Both the position numbers and the translations under genes were made by a program. The notes under the pieces were generated by a model. The model saw only the letters and a list, made by a program, of their open reading frames with translations, was not told the DNA's origin and made no database searches. 64,000 nucleotides of DNA from Clostridiales bacterium (GTDB lineage Bacteria; Bacillota; Clostridia; Christensenellales; Borkfalkiaceae). Shown here piece by piece: positions 16,955-40,403 of the stretch (within the stretch, counting starts at the first letter, position 1; each line of letters begins with the position of its first letter). The stretch covers positions 1 through 64,000 of the forward strand of contig SVHH01000006.1 of NCBI GenBank assembly GCA_015055945.1, read 5' to 3'.

Positions 16955-18586
16955 TTAATTCACGTCAAAGACGTACGTTTTTTTATAAGTAACACCGTCG
17001 TATATAAAAGTATATTCTACTACCGTAGTTCCGTTTTGCGTTATAATTTCACCGTTATTTACAGCGACTTCGGTTTCACCAACTTTAACGTTTACACTAT
17101 ATTCTTCTGATAATATCGTTTCACCAGCTAAAAGCTTTGCCGTTGGCAATATAAACGTTTCACCTGCCGACGTTGGGGCAGCCTTTTTTTCAACGTCAAT
17201 AAACCCGAAAGTTATTGAGTCAATATAAATAGGAATGGAATTATTACCGTCGTGAAAACTCATTAAAAATTGTCCCGAACCTGCATTGTTAAAGGTTTTA
17301 CAAAAATTTTCGTGCCGCTCTTTTGCCGTATTCCCTTCGCGATTAGATAACAGTTCGTTTTTGGTAACGGTAAAATCATACCACTCTTTAGTGGGAACAT
17401 TTAATTCACGTTTAGTTCCGATGCAAAGCGAATGTTTTCTTATAGGCTCACCCGTTTTTTTATCCACGCCTTCCCAATCCATATAAAGCCTAACGGTAAT
17501 ACTATCAAAGTCTAAGTTCTTTAGGTATTCTAAACTACGCCCAAAACGCACAGCCAAAGCGTTCATGGATTTATAAGCAAGACAATAGCCAACGCCTTGC
17601 GCCCCTTTAAAACTTGCTAGCCACGTTCCCGATTGTTTTAGGTCGCCGCAATTACTCGTGTTCATATTAAGCGCGCTACCTTCGTGCGAAAAATCTTCCA
17701 AAAAGTTGTCTGCCATTTTAGGACGGAACATTATCACGGTAGTGCAAGTCTGTCCGTATACTTTTGCCGTAACGCTGCACACGCCCTCGGAAACAAGCGC
17801 GGTTACTTTTCCGTTTTTGTCCACCGTCGCCTTACTTTTATCTTGACTTTCCCAAACAACGTCAAATCCCAACTCTTCGGCATATCGTACGCTTAAATTA
17901 GCCGTATCACCTTGAGAAAGGCTCATTTTTGCCGTATTCATCTGAAAAACAATCGCGCCTTGGTTATTTTCTTTTTTGCCAGAAAGTTGGTTGAACGCAC
18001 GGCGTATCATAGAATCAAGCTCAGCCTTTTCACTTTGAGTGTAATTAGCGTTCTCTACCTTTGTAGCCGCAACGGCAACAGCTGCAAGACTTTTTATGTA
18101 CGACTTATCTTCCGTTGCATAAGTTCTTTTTCCGTCGCTATCCTGTTTATACGCAATACCGAAAAACTCACGGTTACTGTTTTTATATAAAACCTTAGAA
18201 ATACTACCTGAAATGAGATAGTCTCCCGAAGTTTGCTGAACAGGCGACGAGCGCATAATCAACACGTCTTCAGGCTTTATTTCATATTCATTTATCAAAA
18301 CGTCATAATAATCATCACCGAACGATAAGTTATATTCGTCAAACCAATCGTAAGGGATTATCATAACGTAATATTCACAATTATCTTCGTAAGCAGATGC
18401 AGTTAGTTTTGCCGTAAAGCGTATACCGCTATTATCGTCCAAACGAACTTCTGCTTTGGTCATAGAAAAATCTTCCGACGATGCCACCGCTTTTTGCGGT
18501 AAAATCGCAAAAAAACCAAGCAACAAACAAATAGTTGCAATAAAGGACAAAAGCCAAGTTAAAATAACCTTTTGTTCTCTTTTCAT
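16955..18586 (-). CDS. Secreted 'GIRF'-domain protein with Ig-like (Big_2) and binding module
   Basis: 543 residues with a signal peptide (cleavage about 35, KAVA-SS). Residues 40-210 form a domain shared with two other large secreted proteins here: EVRLDDNSGIRFTAKL, YYVMIIPYDWF, EFFGIAYK and a closing AVAVAATK helix. A Big_2-like Ig fold follows (about 225-290, WESQDKSKATVDKNGKVTAL), then a beta-sandwich module (about 295-470) with DSITVRLYMDW and IYIDSITFG, resembling a carbohydrate-binding module. No LPXTG or transmembrane anchor is visible. The AAGGAG of this gene overlaps the stop of the 48-aa lipoprotein gene (ten-base gap), so they are translationally coupled. Likely a surface glycan-binding protein. 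Confidence 0.75.
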   Translation of the reverse strand: MKREQKVILTWLLSFIATICLLLGFFAILPQKAVASSEDFSMTKAEVRLDDNSGIRFTAKLTASAYEDNCEYYVMIIPYDWFDEYNLSFGDDYYDVLINEYEIKPEDVLIMRSSPVQQTSGDYLISGSISKVLYKNSNREFFGIAYKQDSDGKRTYATEDKSYIKSLAAVAVAATKVENANYTQSEKAELDSMIRRAFNQLSGKKENNQGAIVFQMNTAKMSLSQGDTANLSVRYAEELGFDVVWESQDKSKATVDKNGKVTALVSEGVCSVTAKVYGQTCTTVIMFRPKMADNFLEDFSHEGSALNMNTSNCGDLKQSGTWLASFKGAQGVGYCLAYKSMNALAVRFGRSLEYLKNLDFDSITVRLYMDWEGVDKKTGEPIRKHSLCIGTKRELNVPTKEWYDFTVTKNELLSNREGNTAKERHENFCKTFNNAGSGQFLMSFHDGNNSIPIYIDSITFGFIDVEKKAAPTSAGETFILPTAKLLAGETILSEEYSVNVKVGETEVAVNNGEIITQNGTTVVEYTFIYDGVTYKKTYVFDVN

Positions 18587-18596
18587 ATTTTTCTCC

Positions 18597-18743
18597 TTAT
18601 GCGTAAATATCGTCCATTACTGGGTCGTTATATTCCCCAACAGGCGGACTCTCTACGTCAGGCTTATCTTGTTTACAAGCGGAAAATGCGCACGTTAAAA
18701 CGCATAAAACCGCCATCATAATCAACAATATTTTTTTCTTCAT
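18597..18743 (-). CDS. 48-aa small lipoprotein with C-terminal 'DP..DD.Y' tail
   Basis: A short frame from the ATG at 18743 (AAGGG upstream) encodes 48 residues: a hydrophobic signal with lipobox AFSAC (Cys23), a short linker, and the tail EYNDPVMDDIYA. That tail resembles NPYDPSLDDVYIP at the end of the Ig-like lipoprotein (21195-22964) and NYDPSLDDVYL of the 40-aa protein (20928-21050). It lies ten bases upstream of a large secreted-protein gene, the same position as the other two tiny proteins in the window. Function unknown. The coding call rests on the lipobox, ribosome binding site, tail and position. Confidence 0.8.
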   Translation of the reverse strand: MKKKILLIMMAVLCVLTCAFSACKQDKPDVESPPVGEYNDPVMDDIYA

Positions 18744-18780
18744 CTTATTTCCCTTAATTAAAATAAACGCTATATTAGGG

Positions 18781-18816
18781 AACTTCCTACCGCTGGAAAA
18801 ATCCAGCGGTAGAAGT
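18781..18816. other. Stem-loop after secreted-protein gene (locus A)
   Basis: CTACCGCTGGA and TCCAGCGGTAG pair perfectly around AAAA, extended by AACTT/AAGTT. It lies 67 bases after the 674-aa secreted-protein gene and before the 48-aa lipoprotein gene. No T run follows on the minus strand, suggesting mRNA 3'-end protection or processing within the operon. Confidence 0.75.
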
Positions 18817-18882
18817 TACCTATGATGTACATCAAATAATCTTATCTTTAATAAACAACAAAACTCAAAACTTTTCTAAAAT

Positions 18883-20907
18883 TTATTCAGCCGTAGTGGT
18901 CGTGTAGGTAACGCCGTCAACATATAAATTAACTGGACAATCCGCTGAAGGCACAGAAAACATTCTACCTGCTGCATTTCCAGTCCCTGTTGAACAGAAC
19001 GCTGATGCAAATTTGCTAATTTTTTCCGCCTCATTAGCACCCGTAAAGTTTGTAAGTATTTGTGCTTTTGTAAGCGTTACGTCCGTCCATTTATTTGCAG
19101 TAAGCGTCGTAATCTCATTACCTAAAATCTTCAACGTTACGGCTTTATCCACCATAATACGCCAGGTTATTGAATCTAACGTTCCCATCATAGCCGTAAG
19201 CTCTTCTGCCGTTCTTGCAAAACGCATCGTAGCATAGCCAGAACTACCTGACGTGATCGTTACTTTTGCAACGTTATAAGCAGTCTTGCCACTGCTGTCA
19301 GCTTGAGTTTCAACAAGACTGATATTATTTGCATTACCCGGTAATGCCATGTTAGAAGTAATGTAATTATTTAACGCAACACTTTTTGGAAGATTAAAGT
19401 TTTCTAATTCGTGCTCTTCCATTCTTATCGTACCAACGCTTACGTAATCGATATAGAACGTTACTTTTCCCTGCGTACCACTATCATAATTTTGACAGCC
19501 ACCATCATTGCCACCTATGATCTTACCCGTACCCGTATTGCAATACAGGTCCAAGAAAGAATTCCACTTTTCTTCGTCCGTACTACCTGTTTGTCCGCTA
19601 ATAAGACTTGCCTTCGTAACAGTGTAATAACTCCATGTGTTAACGGGATACGCCGTATATCCTCCATTGAAAAACCGTACACTCAAATTCGCAACTGCGT
19701 TAGGGCTAGTTGCGCAAAAACGAACGGTAATCGTTTCAATGTTCATTGCCTCAAGTTCCGCTCTGCTTGCATTCAACCTTAATCCACATGAATAGTACGT
19801 CTTATCTTTCGTCGCCTTACCAACACCATATCCTATATTGCCGTGAGCATCGGTATACGATTCCACCCATTCACCGCTACTAGTTGTTGGAATAATTTCA
19901 TAGGTGTTGATATCGTACGTTCTTGTAGAGCCATTTTCATTCTCGTAATGCGAAGCGGCAAAATCTTGCAACATACCCTCTGCCATTTTGGGAGTGTGGT
20001 AAACGATAAGATTTTTGGTTTCCCCTGCGATCTTTGCTTTCACGAAAGAGTAACCAGTTTCATCATTGACCGTCAACACGCCGTCTTCCGTGATGGCTGA
20101 AGTTCCATCCACCGAATATTCGATAGGTAGATCAAGTTTTTCCTCCTTGGGAAGACCAACCATTTCCAACGGGGTTACCGATCCTTTATCTAGCGTATAG
20201 TATACGTTTTGTTTAAATCCAACCTTAGAAAGGTCGAGCGTTGCGCCAGTTTCTGTGCCGTTGGTGATAAGATCGTATGCTCTATCAATGGTGGGTTTAA
20301 GGTTTGTTTTATCGCCATCAAAGTTTTCGTCGTTTAATGCAGCACCTGCTACCCAACAAATACTTCTAACAGATTTATCATTTCTTTCAGCGTAATTGCG
20401 CGTGCCGTTAGCCATCTCTTCGTATGCTATACCGAAAAACTTAGTGTTGCTGTTTGTGAAATGCACGTTACTAATCGTGCCTTTCAATTCGTACAAGTTG
20501 TCGCCTATTTTCTCGGGCTCAGTTTGCATAGTGATAAAGTCACGTTCGTTTACGTCTTCAGTTGCGGGATCGTCCACGTCGCTAAGACCTTTACCTATTA
20601 AGTGAGCGTAGTAATCGCCGTCTGCTGCGTTTTGAAGATCATAATCGGTTTCCGTTAGCCATTTTGCGGGAACTATCATAACGTAGTATTTAGAACCAGG
20701 TCTAACGGCTTTTGTTGTTGCTTTGAAACGGATACCATAGTGAGCGTCGGTACGAATTTCCGCGCCAACCATTTCAATCTTATAATCCGCTTCACTTATC
20801 GGTGTAGCAGTATCAGCAATAGCAACACCCGTTGCCGTGCTTATGAGTGCGGTGCACAACGCAACCCCTGCTAACCATTTAATAAGTTTATTTTTTCTTT
20901 GTTTCAT
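18883..20907 (-). CDS. Large secreted 'GIRF'-domain protein with two C-terminal binding modules
   Basis: 674 residues from the ATG at 20907, which has GGGAGG upstream; a frame from 20922 would place that site inside the gene. Signal peptide to about 31 (GVAIA-DTA). Residues 40-210 are the shared GIRF domain (EIRTDAHYGIRFKATTK, YYVMIVPAKWL, KFFGIAYEEM). An Ig-like linker follows, then two related beta-sandwich modules, each with a pattern IT.R, a Trp-containing turn, VTKASLISG or LTKAQILTN, a CSTGTG/CNTGTG loop and a closing YVDGVTY/YIDYVSV strand. Similar modules occur in three other proteins here. No anchor motif. Preceded by the 40-aa protein gene (20-base gap). Confidence 0.78.
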   Translation of the reverse strand: MKQRKNKLIKWLAGVALCTALISTATGVAIADTATPISEADYKIEMVGAEIRTDAHYGIRFKATTKAVRPGSKYYVMIVPAKWLTETDYDLQNAADGDYYAHLIGKGLSDVDDPATEDVNERDFITMQTEPEKIGDNLYELKGTISNVHFTNSNTKFFGIAYEEMANGTRNYAERNDKSVRSICWVAGAALNDENFDGDKTNLKPTIDRAYDLITNGTETGATLDLSKVGFKQNVYYTLDKGSVTPLEMVGLPKEEKLDLPIEYSVDGTSAITEDGVLTVNDETGYSFVKAKIAGETKNLIVYHTPKMAEGMLQDFAASHYENENGSTRTYDINTYEIIPTTSSGEWVESYTDAHGNIGYGVGKATKDKTYYSCGLRLNASRAELEAMNIETITVRFCATSPNAVANLSVRFFNGGYTAYPVNTWSYYTVTKASLISGQTGSTDEEKWNSFLDLYCNTGTGKIIGGNDGGCQNYDSGTQGKVTFYIDYVSVGTIRMEEHELENFNLPKSVALNNYITSNMALPGNANNISLVETQADSSGKTAYNVAKVTITSGSSGYATMRFARTAEELTAMMGTLDSITWRIMVDKAVTLKILGNEITTLTANKWTDVTLTKAQILTNFTGANEAEKISKFASAFCSTGTGNAAGRMFSVPSADCPVNLYVDGVTYTTTTAE

Positions 20908-20927
20908 TTTCTTACCTCCCATTAACC

Positions 20928-21050
20928 TTAAAGATATACGTCGTCTAAGGACGGATCGTAATTAAGTGGTGTCTGTGATTCGTTCATAATGTCCTTTGTC
21001 AACAATACTAGGTTAATTATTGCGGGAGTATAACTCTTTTTTGTTGTCAT
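20928..21050 (-). CDS. 40-aa small protein sharing the tail of the neighbouring lipoprotein
   Basis: A 40-residue frame from the ATG at 21050 with a strong AGGGAG upstream. The N-terminus follows the pattern K-K-x-Y-x-P-x6-L-x4-D-I-M, also seen in the 46-aa protein of locus B, and the C-terminus NYDPSLDDVYL nearly repeats NPYDPSLDDVYIP, the end of the Ig-like lipoprotein encoded just upstream. The DNA for the tail (20939-20961) matches 21209-21231 with one mismatch. It ends 20 bases before the large secreted-protein gene. No signal peptide or membrane segment. Unknown function; it could be a peptide precursor or a cofactor of surface assembly. Confidence 0.8.
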   Translation of the reverse strand: MTTKKSYTPAIINLVLLTKDIMNESQTPLNYDPSLDDVYL

Positions 21051-21194
21051 TGTCTTCTCCCTTACGCTTTTAGCGTATTTTTAATTTTTTGTTTTGAGTT
21101 TGTCTTTTTTCTAATAAGATTTGTGATTGCTTTGTAATACTTTTTTTAGTTGGTTTTTTTCTTTATTTCATCATTTCCACCCCCCACTATAGCC

Positions 21195-22964
21195 TTACGG
21201 AATATACACGTCGTCTAAAGACGGATCGTAAGGGTTATCTTCCTGTATTTCCTTTTTTTCAAAAGTGATACTGTCAAAATACATATCTAAACTTACACCA
21301 GATCCAGCAATAGCTGCGCTAAACAGTCTTGGTGCGTCGCCAGAGCCTGTCGAGCAGAAATTTTCAGCAAACTTTGCAATTTTTTCTTCTTGCGTTGCGC
21401 CTGACATAGCGTATAATATTTCCGATCTAGTAACGGTAATTTCCGTCCACTTGTTCGTGGGGATTTCTTTTGCTACACCAAACAGTTTTACAACAATCGT
21501 TTGGTCTTCACCATGTTTGACAAGAAGTCTAACAGTTAGCGTTTTCAAGTCTTGCATAATGCTTAATAGTTCGCTTTCCGTTCTATTGAAACGTACTGGA
21601 AGAACTTGATTTGTGTACCACATTTGTCCGTAAACAACGCCGTTTGCTACCGTTCCTTCGCCGTCAGTAAAACTTGCATAATGCGTACCTTTACGATCTT
21701 GCGCGAAGCTTACTGCGCCAGAAGCGACGTTATTCGTGCTTAAACCGTACGTGTAATCGTCTAATACGTTTTCAGCAAGTTCGGGCATACCTAAATAGAT
21801 TGCATCAACCCAAACTGGAAGACCTTTGCCCGTCATATCACCGATAGGCGCACCGAATATACGGCAACCGCCTTTGGATACGCCTGAGCCTGTAACGCTA
21901 TATGCCTTGGCAAAGTCCGCAATCTTTTCTTCTTCTGTTGCGCCTTGCATTTTGGAAAAAATTTGTTCCTTGGAAACACAAATTGCCGTCCATTTGCCAA
22001 CGGGAACAGTTTGCTGTACGCCAAAGAATCTAAATGCAAATTCTTCAAAGCCCTCTCTTTCAATCATAAAGTGCAAGGTGATTGCGTCAACTTTCTTAAT
22101 TATTTCCGTTAATTCCGCTTGGGTTTTATTAAATCTTCCTGCGGCAACTTGGTTACTGTACCAAATGGAAAACGCAACTACGCCGTTTGCGGTCGTTTCT
22201 TCGCTATCAGTCTTGGTCGCAAGATAAGTTCCGGTAGATGGTCCGCTCAAAAAGCTTAGTCCGCCTGTCGCATTCTCTACGCTGTTTGCGTGTCCAAAGT
22301 CTTCTAGCATCTTTTCAGGCATTTGAGGACGAACAACAATCGTTTTTTCATTCACGTACTCGTCGTTATATTTATCGATTGCAGTTGAACGCAAAGTATA
22401 CTTTCCTGCTTGTTGCGGTGTAAATTTTCCGTCCGTTATCGTCTGTTCTTTCTCCGAGCCACCGTCCATAAAATATACTTTTATAGTTGGTTCAAGTACG
22501 TCGCCCGTTACCTTTGTCGCCGTTACTGTCGGCAAGGTATAGACAGAGCCTACCGTACCAGTATACAATTTAGACGAATATATAAACTTCGGCGCGGATT
22601 TATCTTTTACTTCTATGGTAATTACACGCGTCTTTACTTCTCCGCTCGGCAATTGTACGCTTACTTTAATAGTATAGGGATTTAACGAATTAAGTTCAAA
22701 ACGGTTGAACGTTAGCTCTACGGGATTGTTCTCATGATCGGTTACTTCCACCGTGCCTTTATACACGTTATCTTCCGTATCAACTACCATAACGTAACTT
22801 GACACCGAGAAATCTTCGTATAGCGCGCCTTCTACCGTTACGTCGTTAAACCCGACAAGTTCAATCGCATTGTCTTTATCCTTACAGCCTACAAGTCCTA
22901 ACGCTGCACAAATCAAGGTTATCGCGCTTAAAATTAAGATAAATAATTTTTTGATTTTATTCAT
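21195..22964 (-). CDS. Ig-like surface lipoprotein with two binding modules and a short tail
   Basis: 589 residues. Lipobox LVGCKD (Cys27). Residues 35-120 and 125-220 are Ig/cadherin-like beta domains (YTGTVGSVYTLPTV, KFTPQQAGKYTLRSTAID). Two homologous beta-sandwich modules follow (about 225-400 and 400-570), each with QAELTEIIKKVDAITLHFMI or SELLSIMQDLKTLTVRLLV, a Trp-Thr strand, and a GSG loop before a YFDSITF-type strand. The protein ends with the extra tail NPYDPSLDDVYIP, reused by the 40-aa protein. AAGGAG precedes the ATG. Encoded 12 bases after the two-domain lipoprotein gene. Likely a surface glycan-binding protein feeding the ABC importer. Confidence 0.8.
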   Translation of the reverse strand: MNKIKKLFILILSAITLICAALGLVGCKDKDNAIELVGFNDVTVEGALYEDFSVSSYVMVVDTEDNVYKGTVEVTDHENNPVELTFNRFELNSLNPYTIKVSVQLPSGEVKTRVITIEVKDKSAPKFIYSSKLYTGTVGSVYTLPTVTATKVTGDVLEPTIKVYFMDGGSEKEQTITDGKFTPQQAGKYTLRSTAIDKYNDEYVNEKTIVVRPQMPEKMLEDFGHANSVENATGGLSFLSGPSTGTYLATKTDSEETTANGVVAFSIWYSNQVAAGRFNKTQAELTEIIKKVDAITLHFMIEREGFEEFAFRFFGVQQTVPVGKWTAICVSKEQIFSKMQGATEEEKIADFAKAYSVTGSGVSKGGCRIFGAPIGDMTGKGLPVWVDAIYLGMPELAENVLDDYTYGLSTNNVASGAVSFAQDRKGTHYASFTDGEGTVANGVVYGQMWYTNQVLPVRFNRTESELLSIMQDLKTLTVRLLVKHGEDQTIVVKLFGVAKEIPTNKWTEITVTRSEILYAMSGATQEEKIAKFAENFCSTGSGDAPRLFSAAIAGSGVSLDMYFDSITFEKKEIQEDNPYDPSLDDVYIP

Positions 22965-22976
22965 ATTCTCATCTCC

Positions 22977-24272
22977 TTAATTTACGCCTTCAAGTTTCTC
23001 GCCCTTTTCTAGACGGAAGTTGTCTAGGAATACTACCCATTCTTCGCCGTCCGCTGCTGGTAGCGTTGCGAACGTCATTGCAAATCCGCCAGTTTTTGTT
23101 ACGTACTCTTTTGCGTTTAAGCCTCGTGAAAGTTCCCAAAGAGAAATCTTATAACTAGTCCATTTTCCATACTCGGGACGTGGCCACGTATAATAGCCAT
23201 TAACGGGTGCCCAATCATATTCCTTCTTATCCTTAGATCCTTTCCATTTATTTGGGATAATGTGAGTTCCAGATTCCGTATATGCCCAAATTGCGTGATA
23301 TTGAGCGAACTTATCAGAATCGTTATACATATCGAAACAGAAGTAAGTACTTGCCCAGTCTTCTTCAGGGACTTTATCTAGCCCTGCCGCTTTCATTAGT
23401 TGTGCGGGTATGGTTACGTTGAAGTTGGTTTGTATGGTATTTGTACGCATTACGCGCAATACGTTTTCACCTGAACTAGCAGTAATATCATAGTCGGCTG
23501 CCTTTACGATTTTTACTTCGCCAATTTCTTCACGAACTTCTGCTCTATACGCGTATTTTTGCCAGATTTTTTCAAAGTCGCAAATTTCCGTCGTCGTATC
23601 CGTCTTATCTAGTTCTAAGCCACCGTCAATCGTTGCTTGTTCAGCTGCCTTGGTAAGCACTACGTTATCTAGATAAATACTTGGTGCTTGATCGGGATAT
23701 TCCACTCCCGTGTCAGGGAACTGGAAGTATACGCCCGATATTGCCGTTGGGTCACCTGCAATACTTAAAAACGTACAGTCTACTAGATAGCTCGCCCTCG
23801 TCCACGTTTTGGGCGCAAGCACTACTTTTTCGCCAGCCATAAGCGTTGCTGTTGAATTGTTGTGCGATGCTGCTAAACCAAACGTCATTGTAATGGCCTT
23901 TTCTGAATCGTTATACAAATACGCGCTTACTTCTTCGTAATAGGTAAAATCGGAATAATCATAATCGAACAGATCTGATTTTAAGGGCATTACAAAGCAA
24001 GGTGAAGTTATAGAAACTCTTCCACCGACTGGTTGCAACTTTGCCGAATAGTTACCGCCTTTTACAAACTTAGTGTCGGTATTTCTTGTTATACGACCAA
24101 AATAACCGTACAGTGCCATTGTTTGAAAGTTCGGTCCCCACTCTTCAAAATCAGCAAACATGATTTTACTGTCGTCTTTGACTTCTTCGGCTTTTTTATC
24201 TTTACAGCCAACAACGAACAAAGAAGTAAAACACGTTATCAATGCTAACAATAAACATATTAGTTTTTTCAT
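22977..24272 (-). CDS. Two-domain glycan-binding-like lipoprotein
   Basis: 431 residues. Lipobox FVVGCKD (Cys23). Two jelly-roll-like domains in tandem, starting IMFADFEEWGPNF and EICDFEKIWQKY and ending PSIYLDNVVLTK and VFLDNFRLEKGE. The 'DFE... LDN' framing is typical of carbohydrate-binding beta-sandwiches. A paralogue lies at the same position in locus B (40416-41735), sharing NTDTKFVKGG / NTDAKFVKSG and QPVGGR / QPFGGR. It follows the DUF4091 gene by 21 bases and has AAAGGAG upstream. Probably displays a glycan-binding surface near the importer. Confidence 0.8.
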   Translation of the reverse strand: MKKLICLLLALITCFTSLFVVGCKDKKAEEVKDDSKIMFADFEEWGPNFQTMALYGYFGRITRNTDTKFVKGGNYSAKLQPVGGRVSITSPCFVMPLKSDLFDYDYSDFTYYEEVSAYLYNDSEKAITMTFGLAASHNNSTATLMAGEKVVLAPKTWTRASYLVDCTFLSIAGDPTAISGVYFQFPDTGVEYPDQAPSIYLDNVVLTKAAEQATIDGGLELDKTDTTTEICDFEKIWQKYAYRAEVREEIGEVKIVKAADYDITASSGENVLRVMRTNTIQTNFNVTIPAQLMKAAGLDKVPEEDWASTYFCFDMYNDSDKFAQYHAIWAYTESGTHIIPNKWKGSKDKKEYDWAPVNGYYTWPRPEYGKWTSYKISLWELSRGLNAKEYVTKTGGFAMTFATLPAADGEEWVVFLDNFRLEKGEKLEGVN

Positions 24273-24293: not shown

Positions 24294-26783
24294 TTATTTC
24301 CCATAAATCAATACGTTCTTTACGTATACGACCTTACTGTCTTCATTGTCCGTATCGCCAAACCACAAACGTACCTTTTCCATTGCGCCCATGGTCGCCC
24401 ATTGAACGTTTGCTAACGGTATTTCTACTAGCGTCGTCGTTTTCGGTTTTAATATCGCTTGAGGTCTTGCGCTATAAATGCTTTGTTTTTTATACTTGAC
24501 TGATAAGGTAAGCGGTATCTCTTTCGCGCTATCGTTATATATTGTGAAAATAACCTTTTCGGCATTTTTATTTGCCGCTTCGTTTAATTCAGAAGATATG
24601 AACGATATCATCTGCGAAGATCCGTCTAGCGCGTCTATCGCTAGTCTTGCGTATTGTCCGGTCATTCCGATCGTTTCCCCGTCCACTAGCGTCGGCGTTA
24701 CTGCCGCCGTATCTTCTTCAAAACAGTCATAGAAATTCTCTGCGCTAATGATTTGCGCCTTGCCGCCTACGTATTTTGTGTAAGAATAGGTCGTTCCGTT
24801 TGCTTCATATGAAAGGTCGATATAGTTTTCATTTTGGTCTAAATTAGTCGTGGTCGTATAAATCCAACCTTCACCGTGCGCTATGCGGTCGGTAAGCGTT
24901 TTACCATTGCTTTTCAACTCATAACCATCTTTAATATAAGCTTTTGTCGTTATCGTACCATCGCCATTATCCGTCGAACTTATAATGCAAAGTTCTGCCG
25001 GAGAATGCGCTGCAACCGCCGCCGCTAACAACGCTTCTCTTGCATCTACAAAGTTATCTACGCTTGCTAGTACTTGCGCGCTGCTATATAAACTTGAAGA
25101 TAGTGCAGAAACGAACTCGTCTGCAGGAAGTCCTAGTTCTTTATACTTTTGTTTCATTGCATAGAGAATTTCGTATTCTTCCATGCCGTCCCTAATGCCT
25201 TCTAGTCTCAACGTTGCCACCGGCTCGTCTAGACCGTACTGTCCGCCAGGTGCGAAAAGTACACCTTCATTACTTACAGCCAAACGATCATCCCAATAAT
25301 TATCATAATAATCTTCTTTCAAGCCGTAGTCGTTTACCGCCCAATATAAATTTCCTGCGATATCGTATTCGGCTTGCATCCAACTTAGCAAACGAGTGTT
25401 TAAGTTGGTCGTGTGCTCAAGATGATAATCGACGTAAGGATGAATCGGGTCGTTACAGCCGTACCACCAAAGCTCTACTGATTTTTCATCTAGACGATAT
25501 TGTTCTCTCTCACCTTCCGTATCTACAAAGTAGAACTTTGGACAGTAAGCATTAATGTAAGCATCAGTATTATAATCGGAATATTTATCCTGATACCAAA
25601 AAGTGCATACGTGCGGCATCACTCTTAGTGATGCAATCGCCTCTGCTTTAACTGAAGAAGTGATTGTAGTATCCGTTTCCAAAGCATCTGCCACTTTTTT
25701 TACCGTGGTGTTAAATATTTCACCGTTTTCCAAAATCTGCTCGTCGGGAAGTTTGCGTTGTATTGCTTCGTCCAAAATTACGTTATATACAATAAGCTTT
25801 TTGAACATATTAAAATCTTCTTCAAAAGATTTTTTTGCAATCGCGTACAAATACTTCTCAAAAATTCCCCTATCAATAACAGTACCCTTTGAACCTGCTA
25901 CTTCCTTATAAGGAATACTTAAACAACTAAGTCTTGGGTTTTTGAGCAAAGCGTATGCTTTTTCAAGCCAAGCTTGAATACCTTGGTCGCTGTGGTCATT
26001 TTCTTTATAGATACCAAACGGTGCAAGTCGGTATTCGATAAGCTTATCCGTGTAAGCGTCTATCATTCTTTGTGACGTATCTAATTCAGCGTGATGTGCG
26101 TTCCAGTTGGTAAGAAAGGTACTTTTTGCATGGGTTTCTGGATTGACTGTAAAATCAACCACTTCTACGCTAATAGGTACGTCCTTCGTATACGTTTTAA
26201 AGTCAATCGTCATTGTGCCCGTATACGTTCCTACTTTTTGGTCAAGTGCTGATTCCACCGTCATATAGACGCCTTGGTTTTCGTTCTTTACGATTTTATT
26301 TTCTTTATATTCTATAATTTTATCGAAAGGAACTATTGCATCGGGATAATATCCCAAAGGCGCGCCGTTCTTTTCACCGTTCTTTTCTACGATAAGATAT
26401 TTTTCGTGATATACACTAATCTGATCTTGATTAATAACAGCAGAGCCGTCAGAAGTTTTTAGGTCGCTAACTTTTACGTCGTAATAGTCAACGTCCACTT
26501 CGGGCGTAATAATAATTTGCGCGCCCTCGTATTCACCTCGTGCCATAACGATGGAAACTTTTGCGTCTTGCTTTACGTCGTCGTAATAAGTTGCATCGTT
26601 ATACTCTTCGCCGTTTTTATCTAAAAAGCTTTGTAACACTTTAATACTTGCATGGCAACCCCAGATATCTACGTTATCCGCAGAAACAGAGTTTGGGTCT
26701 TTCTTCCCACAAGAGCTAAAACAACTAAAACTCATCACCAAAGCAAGAATTATACATAAATTTCTTATTCTACTTTTCCACAT
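24294..26783 (-). CDS. DUF4091-family lipoprotein (glycoside hydrolase-like)
   Basis: 829 residues. Signal with lipobox FSSCGKK (Cys25). An N-terminal beta domain (about 60-210: ARGEYEGAQIIITP, KVGTYTGTMTI) precedes a large TIM-barrel-like region with LWWYGCNDPIHPYVDYH and the DUF4091 signature LFAPGGQYGLDEP then RLEGIRDGMEEYEILYAM (about 530-565). A C-terminal beta domain follows. DUF4091 proteins are found in glycan-use loci and are believed to be glycoside hydrolases; the activity of this one cannot be named. Lipid-anchored, so it acts outside the membrane. Paralogue of 41745-44291. Lies between the solute-binding protein and the two-domain lipoprotein. Confidence 0.85.
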   Translation of the reverse strand: MWKSRIRNLCIILALVMSFSCFSSCGKKDPNSVSADNVDIWGCHASIKVLQSFLDKNGEEYNDATYYDDVKQDAKVSIVMARGEYEGAQIIITPEVDVDYYDVKVSDLKTSDGSAVINQDQISVYHEKYLIVEKNGEKNGAPLGYYPDAIVPFDKIIEYKENKIVKNENQGVYMTVESALDQKVGTYTGTMTIDFKTYTKDVPISVEVVDFTVNPETHAKSTFLTNWNAHHAELDTSQRMIDAYTDKLIEYRLAPFGIYKENDHSDQGIQAWLEKAYALLKNPRLSCLSIPYKEVAGSKGTVIDRGIFEKYLYAIAKKSFEEDFNMFKKLIVYNVILDEAIQRKLPDEQILENGEIFNTTVKKVADALETDTTITSSVKAEAIASLRVMPHVCTFWYQDKYSDYNTDAYINAYCPKFYFVDTEGEREQYRLDEKSVELWWYGCNDPIHPYVDYHLEHTTNLNTRLLSWMQAEYDIAGNLYWAVNDYGLKEDYYDNYWDDRLAVSNEGVLFAPGGQYGLDEPVATLRLEGIRDGMEEYEILYAMKQKYKELGLPADEFVSALSSSLYSSAQVLASVDNFVDAREALLAAAVAAHSPAELCIISSTDNGDGTITTKAYIKDGYELKSNGKTLTDRIAHGEGWIYTTTTNLDQNENYIDLSYEANGTTYSYTKYVGGKAQIISAENFYDCFEEDTAAVTPTLVDGETIGMTGQYARLAIDALDGSSQMISFISSELNEAANKNAEKVIFTIYNDSAKEIPLTLSVKYKKQSIYSARPQAILKPKTTTLVEIPLANVQWATMGAMEKVRLWFGDTDNEDSKVVYVKNVLIYGK

Positions 26784-26804: not shown

Positions 26805-28430
26805 TTAATTACTTAAACCTGCAAGTGATAACGCCATGGACCAAGCACTATCCGTCCAATGTTTAATAGTATCATCATAAAAATCTTGTGCAGTTACCGT
26901 ATTAGTTGAGTTAGATAAAGTGGTATAATGCCCGTCGTTTACAAACGGTTTAACTCCACCAACAGCGCAAAGTTTATAAGAGCTGCCTTTCTTCAAAATG
27001 TTAATAGGCTGATCTTTGTTGCTCATATATGCAATACGATCTTTATGCAAAGGTGATAGCGTTTCATAAACTTCGGGTGCAGTTTCCTGTAAATCAAAAT
27101 AGAAATCAAGGGTAGAACCACTCGTGCCTTTTGCATACTCTACAATACCCCTATCGGTTGCCATAAATCTCAAGAAATCTATTGCAATATCTTTTCCCTT
27201 GGCATAAGCAGGAATAACGCTTTGTGCAGGACCTACTGAACATACAATACTTCTTGCTTCCTTTATTTTGTTAAAGTCTTTTTTACTTACGTCATAACCT
27301 TCGCCTTTAGGCTCGTTGCTGTTTGCGTCAATTGCTTTAACGAGTGCTGAAAGTTCGGCATCGTTTTCTATGGTCGTACACTTTTCAATAATACTGCTAA
27401 TAATTGGTGTCTTCATCATTTTGATAGTAGGAACTTCATAGTTTGCAGCAACCAAACGATCTACCGTTTCTTTCATTTCGTCTACGAAATAGTCGCCGTT
27501 ATAATGGAATACGGCAGCACCTTGCAAAAATCCAGTTTGAGCAACCATGAATTCTTGACTAAACGATTGAGGATTAATGAATCCGTTGTCGTAATCAAGC
27601 AAGGTTTCAATAACTTTTAAGGATTCTAATCTACCTTTTTGCTTAAAGATATCTTTAGAACGTTGTCCGTTTACAATTCCGTTAAAGAAATCGTCGTAGC
27701 CTTGCACGCCTTCGTATTGCGCCCACCAAGCTTCCAGCGCAGAGCCTTCCTTTTCCCAATAAGGCGCGTCCTTAGATTGCATAAATACGTATTGTGCAGT
27801 AGGATCTTCGTTTGCGTACTTGCTTGCATTTTCGTTCTTAATTTTATGACAAATTGCAATAAACTCGTCGGTTGTTCTCGGAACTTCTCCGTAAGTTTTC
27901 AATGCGTTTTCGTTATAAATAAACCCATAAATACCACTATAATAAGGTGCCATAAAATAACTAGTTTCACCTGTTTCGTCGTCTATGGTAGCCATACCCG
28001 CTTCTAGTGAATCGTTAAGTTTTTCCGAGTAGGTAATCTCTTCCCCTGGTACTTTTGCATTGTAAACCACTTCGGTAAGGTCAACTAGATCCTTAGCATT
28101 GCAGTAAGAATCAAAGCCATATCCAAAGAGCAAATCGAAGGTATTATCCTTTTCGCCTAACGCCAACTGGTCTCTTGCAAAATATACGCGATCGTTAAAC
28201 GTAGTCTTTATTTGCAATTCAGGGTATTTTTCTTTTACCCAATCCTGTTCTTTGAACGCTTCAACCGTGTTTCGCGCCCAGTCTGAGCCATACCCTTGTT
28301 CCAAAACGTAGATCTCAAGAAGTTGTTCGTTGTTCCCTTCTTCGTTTGTCTTCCCGCCGCCACAACCTGTTAAAAGCATTGCTGCGATCAAGACAATTGC
28401 CATAATTTTTGCTACAAAGTTTCTTTTCAT
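26805..28430 (-). CDS. ABC importer solute-binding lipoprotein (carbohydrate type)
   Basis: 541 residues. Lipobox LLTGCGG (Cys23). The body has the fold pattern of large family-1-type sugar-binding proteins: VEAFKEQDWVKEKYPELQI, FDLLFGYGFDSY, GFIYNENALKTYGEVP and FLRFMATDRG. It should capture oligosaccharides for the two permeases encoded just upstream in the operon. Paralogue of 44314-45999, sharing QDWVK.KYP, VPGE and AWWAQYEG/VWWTQYEG. AAGGAG precedes the ATG, 67 bases after the permease stop. No ATPase gene is in the locus. Confidence 0.92.
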   Translation of the reverse strand: MKRNFVAKIMAIVLIAAMLLTGCGGGKTNEEGNNEQLLEIYVLEQGYGSDWARNTVEAFKEQDWVKEKYPELQIKTTFNDRVYFARDQLALGEKDNTFDLLFGYGFDSYCNAKDLVDLTEVVYNAKVPGEEITYSEKLNDSLEAGMATIDDETGETSYFMAPYYSGIYGFIYNENALKTYGEVPRTTDEFIAICHKIKNENASKYANEDPTAQYVFMQSKDAPYWEKEGSALEAWWAQYEGVQGYDDFFNGIVNGQRSKDIFKQKGRLESLKVIETLLDYDNGFINPQSFSQEFMVAQTGFLQGAAVFHYNGDYFVDEMKETVDRLVAANYEVPTIKMMKTPIISSIIEKCTTIENDAELSALVKAIDANSNEPKGEGYDVSKKDFNKIKEARSIVCSVGPAQSVIPAYAKGKDIAIDFLRFMATDRGIVEYAKGTSGSTLDFYFDLQETAPEVYETLSPLHKDRIAYMSNKDQPINILKKGSSYKLCAVGGVKPFVNDGHYTTLSNSTNTVTAQDFYDDTIKHWTDSAWSMALSLAGLSN

Positions 28431-36433: not shown

Positions 36434-38368
36434 TTAAACGTTTTCAAAGAATATATCGCCGATGTAGATAGCAGAATTGCTTTGATCAATTCCAACAGGT
36501 CCACCTAATCCGAATAATACGCAATGAGTATAATTATTCGCTTCTAAAAGAGCTATATAATCATCTATTGAAATAGTTGCCTTTTGCCACACTTGATGCT
36601 TATTAGAAGTTGTGGACCTCGTACTTGATATTCCCGCAGTCAAAAGGAAACTTTTGCCGCCGCCAGATTCAGCAAGGAAATTTATATAATGACTGTCTGC
36701 AGTTTTAGTTAAACTGAACGCCCACCATAAAGAAACGCTATTATATACTTTTTTTAACGTAGCAAAATCTGTTTGTGTCAAAGTATTAAGTACTCTATAC
36801 TCTCCGTTAAAAGCACCTACTGGTTTATATCTAGCCGCATTACCTTCATAGTCACCACTTATAGCACTCAATTCAGTAGATCCTGCCGCTGCATAATTTA
36901 AATAAGTTGTAGTTGTGTTTCCATTATAATTAAACGTTTTATAGTTAGCTGAAGTTACAGTAAGTATTTCTGGAGAAACAACTAATTCAAAAATAATGTC
37001 GCTGATATAGATTTTTGAACTATCCGCACTTATATTGCTTGGATTACCTAACCCAAATAAGACCACGGAAGACGTTGCTACTCCTTCGCTTTCTGTTGCT
37101 ATAGCAATATAATCAGATATGCTTATAGAAACCTTGTTCCATACTTTATTTGCACTTACATACTTTGTCCCATAAATACCAGCCTTACCAAAAAAGCTAT
37201 TTTCCGTGAAAGAATTATAGTTTTTCGAAGTCAAGAAATTTAGATATCCGCCACTTGCTAATTCAGTAAGATTTACAGCGTAATATAACGTAACAGTATT
37301 ATAATCTTCTGCAATTCTATTAAGTTCGTCTAACGTGTAATTGTTTTTAACCTTATATCCTATAGAATAGGACGAAACAGGCTTAACTGTTGCGGCATTT
37401 CCCATGTAGGTTTCACCTGTAAAGTCTGTCAATGTATCAGCACTAGCAAAACCTAGTAAAGAAGTGTCATTATTAACACTATAATTTTTATGTGTTCCAT
37501 TTACAACCTTATTGACGTTAGGTTCGCCAACCTTGACTGTTGCCGTGCGGCTTATTGTGCCGAGTTTTGCCGTTATGGTCGTTGTGCCAAGTTTTTCGCC
37601 ACGGGTTATTTCACCGTTTTGATTTACCGTTGCAACTTCTGTGTCGCTACTAGTCCAAATAGGTGTTAAGTTCTCGGGTATAGTTGCGTTGACGGTGGGT
37701 TCTGCCGTTTTATAAAGGTCGGTAGTAATAGAAGTGTTGCCAAACTTAAAGTTGGATACGTCAACTGCTCCGTCCACGTATGATTTTAACGTGCCGAACT
37801 CGTCGTCTGCGATATTATCTGCAAGCGCGCTACTTGCAACCTGTGATATTGATCTGGTTTGAGGATTAGTTGCAAAAACAGGCTCACTATTACCTACTTT
37901 AATACAGCCGTTTGCTATAAGTTTAGTACCGAAGTTTTCTGACGGAAGACCTGCAACGACAGCGTTAAAGCTATAAACTGCCTCTTGCGCCTTTTCGCCT
38001 GCCGCGTGCGTAACGAGTTTTTCGCAGTTATAAGTAAAGCGTGAAGTTGATGCTTTTGCACTATCTTTCATATCGGCTTCGGTCTTTACGGTTGCTTCGT
38101 CAACGTAAATAGTTAGTTTAGAATCGGTTAATTCATCATAGTAATCTTTATTTACTAGCATAGTAAAACGAATACCCGTAACGTCTTTATATTCACCATC
38201 AGTGGACTTTAATCTTACTTCTGCGCCCTCGCTCATATAGATTGTGGATACAGAAGGAAGGTCGGTTGCTGCTAAGGTCTGTTTGGGTATAAACGTAAAC
38301 GCGCATAACGCCATACAGATTGCTGAACAGAAAACTAGAAGTTTTAACAATACGTTTTTCTTAGTCAT
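36434..38368 (-). CDS. Large secreted 'GIRF'-domain protein with Big_2 and two binding modules (locus B)
   Basis: 644 residues. Signal peptide to about 33 (TLA-ATD). Residues 45-210 form the shared domain (SEGAEVRLKS, TGIRFTMLVNKDYYDEL, GCIKVGNSE). A Big_2 Ig domain follows (about 220-290: IWTSSDTEVATVNQNGEI). Two homologous beta-sandwich modules come next (about 295-470 and 475-644), each with GNAA...P, a GYKV/EYRV NNYT or NTLT motif, a W.K..ISI.DYIA segment and a closing SSKIYISDIIFE or SAIYIGDIFFEN. No cell-wall anchor motif. The start lies 13 bases after the 46-aa protein gene with AAGGAGG overlapping that gene's stop, so they are coupled. Confidence 0.78.
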   Translation of the reverse strand: MTKKNVLLKLLVFCSAICMALCAFTFIPKQTLAATDLPSVSTIYMSEGAEVRLKSTDGEYKDVTGIRFTMLVNKDYYDELTDSKLTIYVDEATVKTEADMKDSAKASTSRFTYNCEKLVTHAAGEKAQEAVYSFNAVVAGLPSENFGTKLIANGCIKVGNSEPVFATNPQTRSISQVASSALADNIADDEFGTLKSYVDGAVDVSNFKFGNTSITTDLYKTAEPTVNATIPENLTPIWTSSDTEVATVNQNGEITRGEKLGTTTITAKLGTISRTATVKVGEPNVNKVVNGTHKNYSVNNDTSLLGFASADTLTDFTGETYMGNAATVKPVSSYSIGYKVKNNYTLDELNRIAEDYNTVTLYYAVNLTELASGGYLNFLTSKNYNSFTENSFFGKAGIYGTKYVSANKVWNKVSISISDYIAIATESEGVATSSVVLFGLGNPSNISADSSKIYISDIIFELVVSPEILTVTSANYKTFNYNGNTTTTYLNYAAAGSTELSAISGDYEGNAARYKPVGAFNGEYRVLNTLTQTDFATLKKVYNSVSLWWAFSLTKTADSHYINFLAESGGGKSFLLTAGISSTRSTTSNKHQVWQKATISIDDYIALLEANNYTHCVLFGLGGPVGIDQSNSAIYIGDIFFENV

Positions 38369-38381
38369 GACTTTTTCCTCC

Positions 38382-38522
38382 TTAAATTACGTCGTCCGAC
38401 CAGTATTGAATATGGTCGCCGTTACTTTGGTCGACGCTTTGACCTGTAGTTGATGTGGTAAGCACGTCGAGCGGTTCAAGCATATCTAGGTATGCCGTTG
38501 GGGGTAAATACTTTCTTTTCAT
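38382..38522 (-). CDS. 46-aa small protein sharing the tail of the locus B lipoprotein
   Basis: 46 residues from the ATG at 38522 with a near-perfect AAAGGAGG. The N-terminus KRKYLPPTAYLDMLEPLDVL follows the same K-K-x-Y-x-P ... D-(I/V)-(L/M) pattern as the 40-aa protein of locus A. The C-terminal part VDQSNGDHIQYWSDDVI repeats VDQDNGDHIQYWQ, the end of the upstream Ig-like lipoprotein, including a 25-base identical DNA stretch. No signal peptide. Positioned between that lipoprotein and the secreted protein, as in locus A. Function unknown. Confidence 0.82.
   Translation of the reverse strand: MKRKYLPPTAYLDMLEPLDVLTTSTTGQSVDQSNGDHIQYWSDDVI
38400..38424. repeat. 25-bp exact direct repeat encoding the shared tail, copy 1
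   Basis: The 25 bases starting CCAGTATTGAATATGGTCGC are identical at 38592-38616. They code the GDHIQYW tail in both the 46-aa protein and the 605-aa lipoprotein. Confidence 0.9.
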
Positions 38523-38585: not shown

Positions 38586-40403
38586 TTATTGCCAGTATTG
38601 AATATGGTCGCCGTTATCCTGATCAACGTCTTGAACTATCGGCGCAGGGGTTGGCTCATTTGGCGCGTTAGGATCTTCGGTTTTTGAGAAAATTATATTG
38701 CCCAAATAGAACGCAGAGTTTGGAACGTCTATCGTATTGACGTCGCCCGTACGGAATAAAACTGCATATTTATAATCATTTTCTTCCAGTAACGCTAAAT
38801 AATCTTCAAACGATATAGTCGTTTTTTGCCAAGCCTTGTTTGTTTCCGAACTGTCGTTCTTCATGCCCAAAATTCCGCCTTTTAGCAAGATACTGTTACC
38901 GCTAGTTTCTGGCAAGAAATTTAAGTAACAACTTGAATTTCCCGCAGTAGGCGTAATACTGAAAGCCCAGTATATCGTAACGTATTTATATTGATTTTTA
39001 ACACTTTCCAACTGCGCTTTGGTGTAGTTGTTTGTAATCCTATACTGTCCGCCGTGTCCAGCAGCAACTTTCATTTTAACGGCGTTACCCGTATAATCTC
39101 CGCTAAGCGTTTCAAGCTCGCTTGAACCTAATGGCAGATAATTTACGTAATTAGAGTTTGAATATCCGTTATAGTTATAGTAACTATAATTGTCTTGATT
39201 GACTATAAACGATTCGGCAACGACGTTGTCAAAGAATATATCACCGATAAATATTGCCGACTTAGTGTCAGATATCTTCGTGCCCCTATTTGCAAGCCCG
39301 AAAAGTATAAAATACTGATAATCGGTTTCTTCAACTAAAGCGATATAATCGTCGATACTTATTGAAATTTTTCGCCACGTTTTGCCTTGCGCCGTATAAT
39401 AGGTTTTAAGCGCGTTCGCTTTGCCGAAAAAGCATTGATATTCTAGACCTGTCGACGTGTTTTTATTTAACAGATATATTTCGCCGTTCTGGTTTTCAAG
39501 TTCTACTAAGTCAAACGCCCACCAAAGTGTAACGTGGGTATAGCTTTTCTTGACTTGATCTAGCGTTTCTTTAGGATAAACGTTTTTAACCCTATATTCA
39601 CCGTTATAGGCGTGCTGCGCCGTAAACCTTGCCGCGCTGCCGTCATAGTTTCCGCTATACGTTTCAAATAGTCCTGAATCGGTAGAAACCACGCTCACCC
39701 TACTTGAATTACTTTCGTGATAAATCCTAGTTATCTGCTCTTCGTCGTTGGCTTTGACGACGTAAGGAAGATATTTTGCAAGGTCTTCAACTTCAAATTC
39801 AAGCTTTGCTATTCCTTCTACCCCTGCGCTATTTACCGCGCGGTATATAAAGTAATAACTGCCAGCCGTCGTAGGTGTAAAGGTCATATCCGCTACGTTA
39901 TATTCCTGTTTTTGCTCACCATTTTCCGTTATCAAAAACATTTCCACGGTGTAATCTTTAATTTCACCGTCTTCATAGTCGGCTACCGTACAAGTAGGAA
40001 TAGAGTACGTTCCGCCAACGTAGTACTTTGATGCTACTGCCGTCGTTATCACGGGTGCAGGCGCAGTAACGGTTATGGTCACCGTTTTTTCAAAGTCCTT
40101 TTTTCCTATCTTTACCGAATAGTTGACGGTGTAGCCATCGTAACTTTTAACCACGAACTTTGCGCCTTCGTAACTGACGGCGTCGCCGTTTGCGTCGGTA
40201 ACAGATGCGGTCATTTCATAAAGATTGCCGTCGGTATCTTCCGCAGTAGTTTCCAAATTGAAAGTTGTGCCGTAGCTTACCGATTGAGTGGTGTTCTCCC
40301 AGTTTTTAAGTTCAACTTTGTTTGAGCAGCTAACCACAAAAGCAGATATGCAAACCGCCAAAATACAAGCAAGACTTATTTTGATTAAACGTAAGTTTTT
40401 CAT
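38586..40403 (-). CDS. Ig-like surface lipoprotein with two binding modules and a short tail (locus B)
   Basis: 605 residues. Lipobox FVVSCSN (Cys26). Two Ig/cadherin-like domains (about 30-115 and 115-205: YYVGGTYSIPTC, FTPTTAGSYYFIYRAVNSAG) precede two homologous modules (about 225-395 and 400-575) with WWAFDLVELEN, W.KISISIDDYIALVEE and SAIFIGDIFFDN. After a Pro/Asn-rich linker it ends VDQDNGDHIQYWQ, a tail reused by the 46-aa protein. Same position and layout as 21195-22964 in locus A, although the modules are of the locus B subtype. Likely a surface glycan-binding protein. Confidence 0.8.
   Translation of the reverse strand: MKNLRLIKISLACILAVCISAFVVSCSNKVELKNWENTTQSVSYGTTFNLETTAEDTDGNLYEMTASVTDANGDAVSYEGAKFVVKSYDGYTVNYSVKIGKKDFEKTVTITVTAPAPVITTAVASKYYVGGTYSIPTCTVADYEDGEIKDYTVEMFLITENGEQKQEYNVADMTFTPTTAGSYYFIYRAVNSAGVEGIAKLEFEVEDLAKYLPYVVKANDEEQITRIYHESNSSRVSVVSTDSGLFETYSGNYDGSAARFTAQHAYNGEYRVKNVYPKETLDQVKKSYTHVTLWWAFDLVELENQNGEIYLLNKNTSTGLEYQCFFGKANALKTYYTAQGKTWRKISISIDDYIALVEETDYQYFILFGLANRGTKISDTKSAIFIGDIFFDNVVAESFIVNQDNYSYYNYNGYSNSNYVNYLPLGSSELETLSGDYTGNAVKMKVAAGHGGQYRITNNYTKAQLESVKNQYKYVTIYWAFSITPTAGNSSCYLNFLPETSGNSILLKGGILGMKNDSSETNKAWQKTTISFEDYLALLEENDYKYAVLFRTGDVNTIDVPNSAFYLGNIIFSKTEDPNAPNEPTPAPIVQDVDQDNGDHIQYWQ
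38592..38616. repeat. 25-bp exact direct repeat encoding the shared tail, copy 2
   Basis: Identical to 38400-38424 and located at the 3' end of the 605-aa lipoprotein gene, 192 bases from the other copy. Confidence 0.9.

Follow-up and report, generated by a model that had tools for sequence, protein, structure and literature searches.

How does a free-standing protein of 40 amino acids (aa) come to end in the same residues as the large surface lipoprotein encoded next to it? The question is raised by a 64,000-nucleotide stretch of a Clostridiales bacterium genome (positions 1 to 64,000 of contig SVHH01000006.1, assembly GCA_015055945.1; hereafter the window), in which a mini-protein, mini A, shares its C-terminal tail with an immunoglobulin (Ig)-like lipoprotein (locus A), and a second such pair is found at another site (locus B). 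The explanation that we favour, and hold to be reasonably probable, is that the minis are precursors of ribosomally synthesised and post-translationally modified peptides (RiPPs) resembling the linear polyphosphorylated peptides (LPP; Popov et al. 2026, PMC13381572), and that their cores were copied onto some of the neighbouring lipoproteins.

Two loci with shared C-terminal tails

The genes that share a tail at locus A, and the tail segments themselves, are:

20928..21050, reverse strand: mini A, 40 aa, with a leader containing Y-T-P and D-I-M-N-E-S and a core ending NYDPSLDDVYL
20931..20960, reverse strand: the shared tail YDPSLDDVYL of mini A
21195..22964, reverse strand: Ig-like lipoprotein A, 589 aa, with the tail NPYDPSLDDVYIP beyond its last module
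21195..21236, reverse strand: codons of the lipoprotein A tail and stop
18597..18743, reverse strand: a mini-lipoprotein of 48 aa, made of a lipobox-like signal (by eye), a short linker and the tail EYNDPVMDDIYA

The coordinates, lengths and tails of these three proteins agree with a first-pass annotation made from the letters alone, as does its statement that the tail-coding segments 20939-20961 and 21209-21231 differ at one position (1 of 23 bases; identity is 90% over 31 bases). The pattern D-P-x-x-D-D-x-Y matches three times in the whole genome (1,725,581 bases, or 1.73 Mb, on 20 contigs; 95.7% complete), each time in locus A and within 2.7 kb, and the reversed control pattern not at all. 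Across 397 genomes of the family, D-P-x-x-D-D-[IMV]-Y is present in six, with more than one copy only in our genome (three) and in G112, from a second genus (two). When tails were scored against each other, mini A reached 54 with lipoprotein A and 35 with the 48-aa lipoprotein.

Locus B comprises:

38382..38522, reverse strand: mini B, 46 aa, with a YLPP leader, DVLTTS and the core VDQSNGDHIQYWSDDVI
38586..40403, reverse strand: Ig-like lipoprotein B, 605 aa, with the end DVDQDNGDHIQYWQ behind a P-rich linker
38589..38627, reverse strand: the tail VDQDNGDHIQYWQ of lipoprotein B

The open reading frame (ORF) of mini B, which the first-pass annotation did not contain, sits in a 217-base gap behind the 605-aa lipoprotein and has a ribosome-binding-type site, AAAGGAGG. 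Its core stretch VDQSNGDHIQYW matches the lipoprotein B end VDQDNGDHIQYWQ with a tail score of 73. The tails are thus alike inside each locus and unlike between the two.

Tail sharing in relatives

We compared the tails of 137 minis (135 distinct, from 134 stretches) with those of same-strand neighbours within 2.5 kb, giving 326 pairs; the minis came from the top of the lists of motif and profile searches started with minis A and B, and are not a random sample. In the control of 13,700 comparisons between minis and foreign genes the 99.9th percentile was 34 and the largest score 48. At scores of at least 34, eight pairs from seven minis were seen against 0.33 expected: B (73), A (54), G495 (47), G112 (41), G166 (38), mini A with the 48-aa lipoprotein (35), G380 (35) and G181 (34). 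The matches of B, A, G495 and G112 are strong, and those of G166, G380 and G181 suggestive; the partner genes of G166 and G380 extend past the stretch examined, so that their anchor type is not visible. All four of the strongest partners (A, B, G112 and G495) are lipoproteins by their N-termini. Chance as the source of the shared tails is rejected on this comparison with foreign genes together with the whole-genome pattern counts.

The relatives show that the peptide itself is kept. G112 has an orthologue of locus A in which a 237-aa lipoprotein without C-terminal modules ends NSPRDPARDDIY and the mini ends VFDPGRDDIYELT; five of the seven identical tail residues are written with different codons, so it is the peptide that is conserved and not the DNA. 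In G495, which belongs to a different family within the order, a mini ending SGDPYEGEDDPIP is followed by a lipoprotein of 172 aa that has a signal, then a P/T-rich stalk and then the terminal sequence SGYDPNEGELDPIP; different codons are used for seven of the eleven identical residues. The corresponding counts of differing codons are two of nine in locus A and three of eleven in locus B. A plain tandem duplication of DNA is insufficient as an explanation, since the codons of G112 and G495 have diverged.

No neighbouring tail matched at a score of 34 for 130 of the 137 minis, and tail sharing is therefore not the rule. The expectation from the first pass that mini tails co-vary with those of their neighbours thus holds in part: the tails are locus-specific and are maintained at the protein level in G112 and G495, but only seven of the 137 minis have such a match. 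Its proposed test, that the small ORFs be kept in relatives, came out in its favour for the class as a whole (see the profile matches below).

Lowering the score to at least 26 gives 12 pairs against about three expected by chance. We left the pairs scoring 26-33 (L275, L340, L123, L205) uncounted, and likewise the G197:C50 pair (score 28), which is alike by eye and within chance; a pair in L079 (score 34) was dropped, its partner being a 26-aa ORF without a mini leader about 3 kb off. As a search anchor the Ig-lipoprotein added a shared tail in one of 40 stretches (G112); the 'DFE' lipoprotein of the same operon, and then the mini profile, served better. Some short lipoproteins near minis (L257, L288, L290:1626-2111), and one where no mini was seen (L055:5383-5616), consist of a signal, an acidic or Ser-rich low-complexity stalk and an acidic-aromatic end; these four ends show no clear match to a mini.

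The minis form a class

The minis make up a large class and typically have a YxxP-type leader, a Ser usually 18-19 residues past the Tyr, and an acidic-aromatic C-terminus. A profile built from 24 of them, with E 0.3 as the limit, finds matches in 156 of the 396 family genomes; it gives mini A 34 bits and mini B 55 bits, each being itself a member of the profile. An earlier profile, run on 200 genomes of the order, matched in 18 at E 0.1, with part of these matches weak and inside long frames. We take the weak matches (E >1e-3, mostly in genera g7 and g9, several of those from the order search inside long frames) as probably false. Among 95 distinct minis, the leader Tyr (or an aromatic stand-in) is followed at 18 or 19 residues by a Ser in 88, and a D stands five residues ahead of that Ser in 88; the Ser was picked in a 14-21 residue range by a permissive score favouring D-[VIL], so that the counts lean towards the motif. 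P stands at +3 from the Tyr in 59 of the 95, which is looser than in LPP, and mini A has its P at +2. The last 15 residues are 26.5% D/E, 13.5% F/W/Y and 3.4% K/R. None of 24 minis compared with Pfam and NCBIfam has a match at E 0.01, and minis A and B have no PADLOC match.

Our own genome has seven matches to the mini profile, five of them listed. Besides A and B we note three minis (L188:10373-10522, L189:6806-6955 and L190:6651-6788), one of them about 1.5 kb past the end of the window; the tail of none matches its upstream gene. Tandem pairs of minis occur in other genera of the order (L162, L168, L182, L171), some directly after large secreted proteins with a terminal KALYLYYLAAYDYF-like domain. 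W-x-D triplets are repeated in several mini cores, for example L046, L074, L137 and L152, composition not being controlled for.

Minis co-occur with a PqqD protein and are linked to RiPP-type enzymes in some genomes

Co-occurrence was examined in family genomes with a completeness of at least 90% and a contamination of at most 5%, of which the mini and PqqD searches sampled 196 and 190, respectively; the genomes are related, and those not listed were scored negative. Taking E 1e-3 for minis and E 1e-8 for PqqD as strong, 41 genomes have both, two a mini only, seven PqqD only and 140 neither (Fisher 8e-32; 1e-23 without our own genus). Minis at E 0.001-0.003 are present in five of the seven PqqD-only genomes; as for the two mini-only ones, G049 has a weaker PqqD match (2.7e-4) and G057 was perhaps unsampled. 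In genus g9, G329 alone is listed with strong matches to both, and for G346 (74% complete) the listed matches include a mini at 7.5e-4 but no PqqD.

Our genome encodes one PqqD protein (PF05402, 66 bits), which matches the lasso peptide B1 protein TbiB1 in the PDB at 5.5e-6 and starts where a P-loop gene ends; the designation of the latter as an HprK-like kinase rests on the P-loop and on sub-threshold matches to NCBIfam HprK-type models, and a PDB search with it gave nothing useful. A crude motif rule places the kinase and PqqD side by side in 24 of the top 30 PqqD loci, and in four of the six misses the P-loop gene is present and the PqqD motif is not. A gene for a signal peptidase I-like (SpI-like) protein adjoins PqqD in genera g3 (L308, L311, L327, L328) and g14 (L250, L254), the g14 proteins being identical to that of L308 at 48 of 113 and 46 of 114 aligned positions. 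The SpI-like protein of our own genome, on contig C1, is 44% identical to that of L308, which is encoded beside PqqD in another genus.

In some genomes the minis lie with these genes. G014 and G030 have a mini in a row with the kinase, PqqD and SpI-like genes, and in G011 a mini match ends 153 bases ahead of the PqqD match. In G565 (L200:6349-10165) a fused P-loop/PqqD protein is encoded close to two precursors, an ABC exporter and an SpI-like protein. We class the minis as LPP-like, with the qualification that minis A and B themselves lie outside any such cluster.

Genes around the minis

The other genes of the two loci are:

16955..18586, reverse strand: secreted-type protein, 543 aa, 10 nt after the 48-aa lipoprotein and related to the 679-aa protein
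18883..20922, reverse strand: secreted-type protein, 679 aa, 3' of mini A, true start likely near 20904
22977..24272, reverse strand: 'DFE'-type lipoprotein of locus A, the anchor of the conserved operon
24294..26783, reverse strand: GH123-like lipoprotein of locus A (PF22680, PF13320)
26805..28430, reverse strand: ABC solute-binding lipoprotein of locus A (PF01547)
36434..38368, reverse strand: secreted-type protein, 644 aa, 13 nt after mini B
40416..41735, reverse strand: 'DFE' lipoprotein of locus B

Gene order is the same at both loci: two permeases, a solute-binding protein, GH123-like, 'DFE' and Ig-like lipoproteins, the mini and a secreted-type protein, the locus B permeases, binding protein and GH123-like protein being named by resemblance to locus A. 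The three secreted-type proteins (16955-18586, 18883-20922 and 36434-38368) have a related N-terminal domain around G-x-R-F, for which Pfam gave nothing above cut-off; two of the three have a Big_2 domain.

More widely, 27 of 81 minis have a gene start at most 50 nt downstream, and 25 of these 27 genes have a signal-like N-terminus as against 83 of 205 other genes. Another measure is that 26 of the 81 lie within 50 nt behind a gene; 13 of those genes are signal-like, many being cut at the 5' end of the stretch.

Direction of copying and proposed mechanism

Which of the two partners is the source? In G125 (genus g3), locus B has an orthologue in which the flanking genes are the same and the mini core TENGDHLQGWGENW keeps NGDH[IL]QxW (as NGDHLQGW); the lipoprotein there has no tail and stops with the last module, at IYVGDIVFDNLN. 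In G136, G113, G005 and G197:C22, minis stand behind Ig-like lipoproteins without a matching tail. Taken together, these loci indicate that the core is the more constant of the two and that the lipoprotein tail varies. Because the G125 core is kept while the lipoprotein tail is absent, the lipoprotein is probably the borrower, having copied the core of an LPP-like precursor, and the first-pass proposal that the mini-proteins reuse the lipoprotein tail is not borne out. At locus B eight consecutive shared codons are identical, which suggests recent copying.

We consider it quite likely that the minis are RiPP-like precursors, and likely too that lipoproteins captured their cores. Each precursor would have its leader at the N-terminus, typically of the form KK-x-Y-x-x-P ... 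D-[VI]-x-x-x-S, followed by an acidic-aromatic core that varies. If they are handled as LPP are, a single set of kinase and RiPP recognition element (RRE) encoded elsewhere in the genome, the kinase beside PqqD and the SpI-like peptidase apart, would bind the leader, phosphorylate the conserved Ser, remove the leader and release the core, which would be exported. Many precursors, including A and B, are encoded beside a secreted-type surface protein of their own locus. At a minority of loci a copy of the core sits at the outer end of a neighbouring lipoprotein, carried on Ig modules (A, B), a bare linker (the 48-aa protein) or a P/T-rich stalk (G495). More loosely, the core may be a recognition element outside the cell, the lipoprotein serving as a lipid-anchored display of that epitope for a partner specific to the locus, perhaps the adjacent secreted protein; such a display or docking role is a tentative suggestion. 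Equally speculative is a surface 'barcode' system, in which one trans-acting LPP-type kinase/RRE/peptidase set would serve many scattered precursors, and the released phosphorylated core and the core-bearing lipoprotein, following repeated capture of cores, would present one locus-specific epitope at the cell surface as a docking site for the secreted protein encoded nearby or for glycan machinery.

Several observations weigh against the explanation of the minis as LPP-like precursors with captured cores. Minis A and B are on contig C18, PqqD on C10 and the SpI-like gene on C1, so that precursors and enzymes do not share a cluster. The kinase has no Pfam family at E 0.01 and falls far below the cut-off of NCBIfam HprK-type models, and the SpI-like protein of L308 reaches 19.6 bits with the NCBIfam signal peptidase model, whose cut-off is 51.85. 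Co-occurrence partly tracks genera, and three genomes with minis (G057, G049, G346) lack a strong PqqD match, two of them, G057 and G346, being perhaps unsampled. The mini profile is unspecific by itself, matching eukaryotic PA2G4 at E 0.002 in a PDB search; we take the PA2G4 sequences, its sole matches there, as chance. Tail sharing is rare (seven of 137 minis at a score of at least 34), and the missing tail in G125, a single locus, could also be a loss.

Alternative explanations

If the lipoprotein tails were functionless duplications of the 3' end of the mini gene, homogenised by gene conversion, the near-identity of the DNA at loci A and B (31 bases at 90%; two of nine and three of eleven codons differing) would be expected. 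We find this unlikely: the peptide is kept in G112 and G495 through codon changes at five of seven and seven of eleven residues, both proteins retain DPxxDD[IV]Y in two genera, and matches recur in unrelated lipoproteins. The opposite priority, proposed in the first pass, makes the tail a sorting or docking tag and the free minis decoys or chaperones copying it. The matching tails inside locus A, inside locus B and in the two relatives G112 and G495 agree with it, but the 130 minis whose neighbours have no matching tail at a score of 34, the leader common to minis and absent from tails, and the retention of the core in G125 without a lipoprotein tail make it very unlikely.

Exported bacteriocins are often paired with immunity lipoproteins, and the four strongest partners are lipoproteins; the tailed lipoprotein might then be an immunity or decoy protein against a bioactive core released by the mini, serving self-protection or signal sensing. 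Most minis have no such tailed neighbour, however, these data contain no sign of antibacterial activity, and tail and core are alike rather than complementary, so that we regard this possibility as distinctly unlikely. That the minis are translation-coupled leader ORFs tuning expression of the secreted gene behind them would account for the signal-like genes starting at most 50 nt downstream (25 of 27, against 83 of 205 others) and for the overlaps of -4 that occur. It appears extremely unlikely, given that 26 of 81 minis lie close behind a gene, that leader and core are conserved at the protein level, and that minis have tails matching other proteins and co-occur with PqqD. The LPP-like explanation with core capture, which we retain, implies that LPP-like precursors are dispersed, several to a genome, in many members of a single bacterial family, often beside surface-protein loci, and it provides concrete testable sets of a core, a lipoprotein and a neighbouring secreted protein.

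Comparison with known systems

With sortase (LPXTG) and dockerin signals the tails have in common that they are a C-terminal tag on a surface protein. They differ from sortase signals in that the tail sequences, as read, have no LPxTG, hydrophobic stretch or basic end, and a Pfam search of the lipoproteins at E 0.1 gave no dockerin. Paeninodin-type lasso peptides resemble the minis in their [Y/W]xxP leader, PqqD-type B1 protein and HprK-like kinase; no lasso cyclase or B2 peptidase was recognised by eye beside our PqqD, no model-based or genome-wide search having been made.

LPP are described from the lppAKBSDN genes of Paenibacillus alginolyticus (PMC13381572). Their precursors carry YxxPxVLxHQxIxFETxxS, with the Ser 18 residues past the Tyr, and variable C-termini; an HprK-like kinase adds several phosphates to one Ser, the RRE is a discrete PqqD-type protein, an SpI-like peptidase and the RRE cut the leader, and the system includes an NTP-transferase and an MsbA-like exporter, the final product and role being unknown as described there. 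The first-pass annotation had given the layout seen here as not known from any described system: related RiPPs are described in PMC13381572, although this layout was not found in the portion of that source drawn on here. Among the open-licence papers that literature searches listed, none dealt by title or abstract with cores copied onto lipoproteins, and only PMC13381572 with LPP.

Compared with LPP as described in PMC13381572, the minis are likewise short precursors with a YxxP leader, a Ser spacing of mostly 18-19 and variable C-termini, and our genome likewise has a discrete PqqD-type RRE, an HprK-like kinase beside it and an SpI-like peptidase, the three enzymes that the comparison covers. 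The motif after the P is D-[VI]-x-x-x-S here and not FETxxS, and the precursors examined here lie mostly away from the enzymes, many beside surface-protein genes. Lastly, cores are copied onto lipoproteins here, a word absent from the main text of PMC13381572, and their position at the tip of some lipoproteins, together with the many precursors beside surface-protein loci, points to the cell surface as a possible site of action of LPP-type RiPPs.

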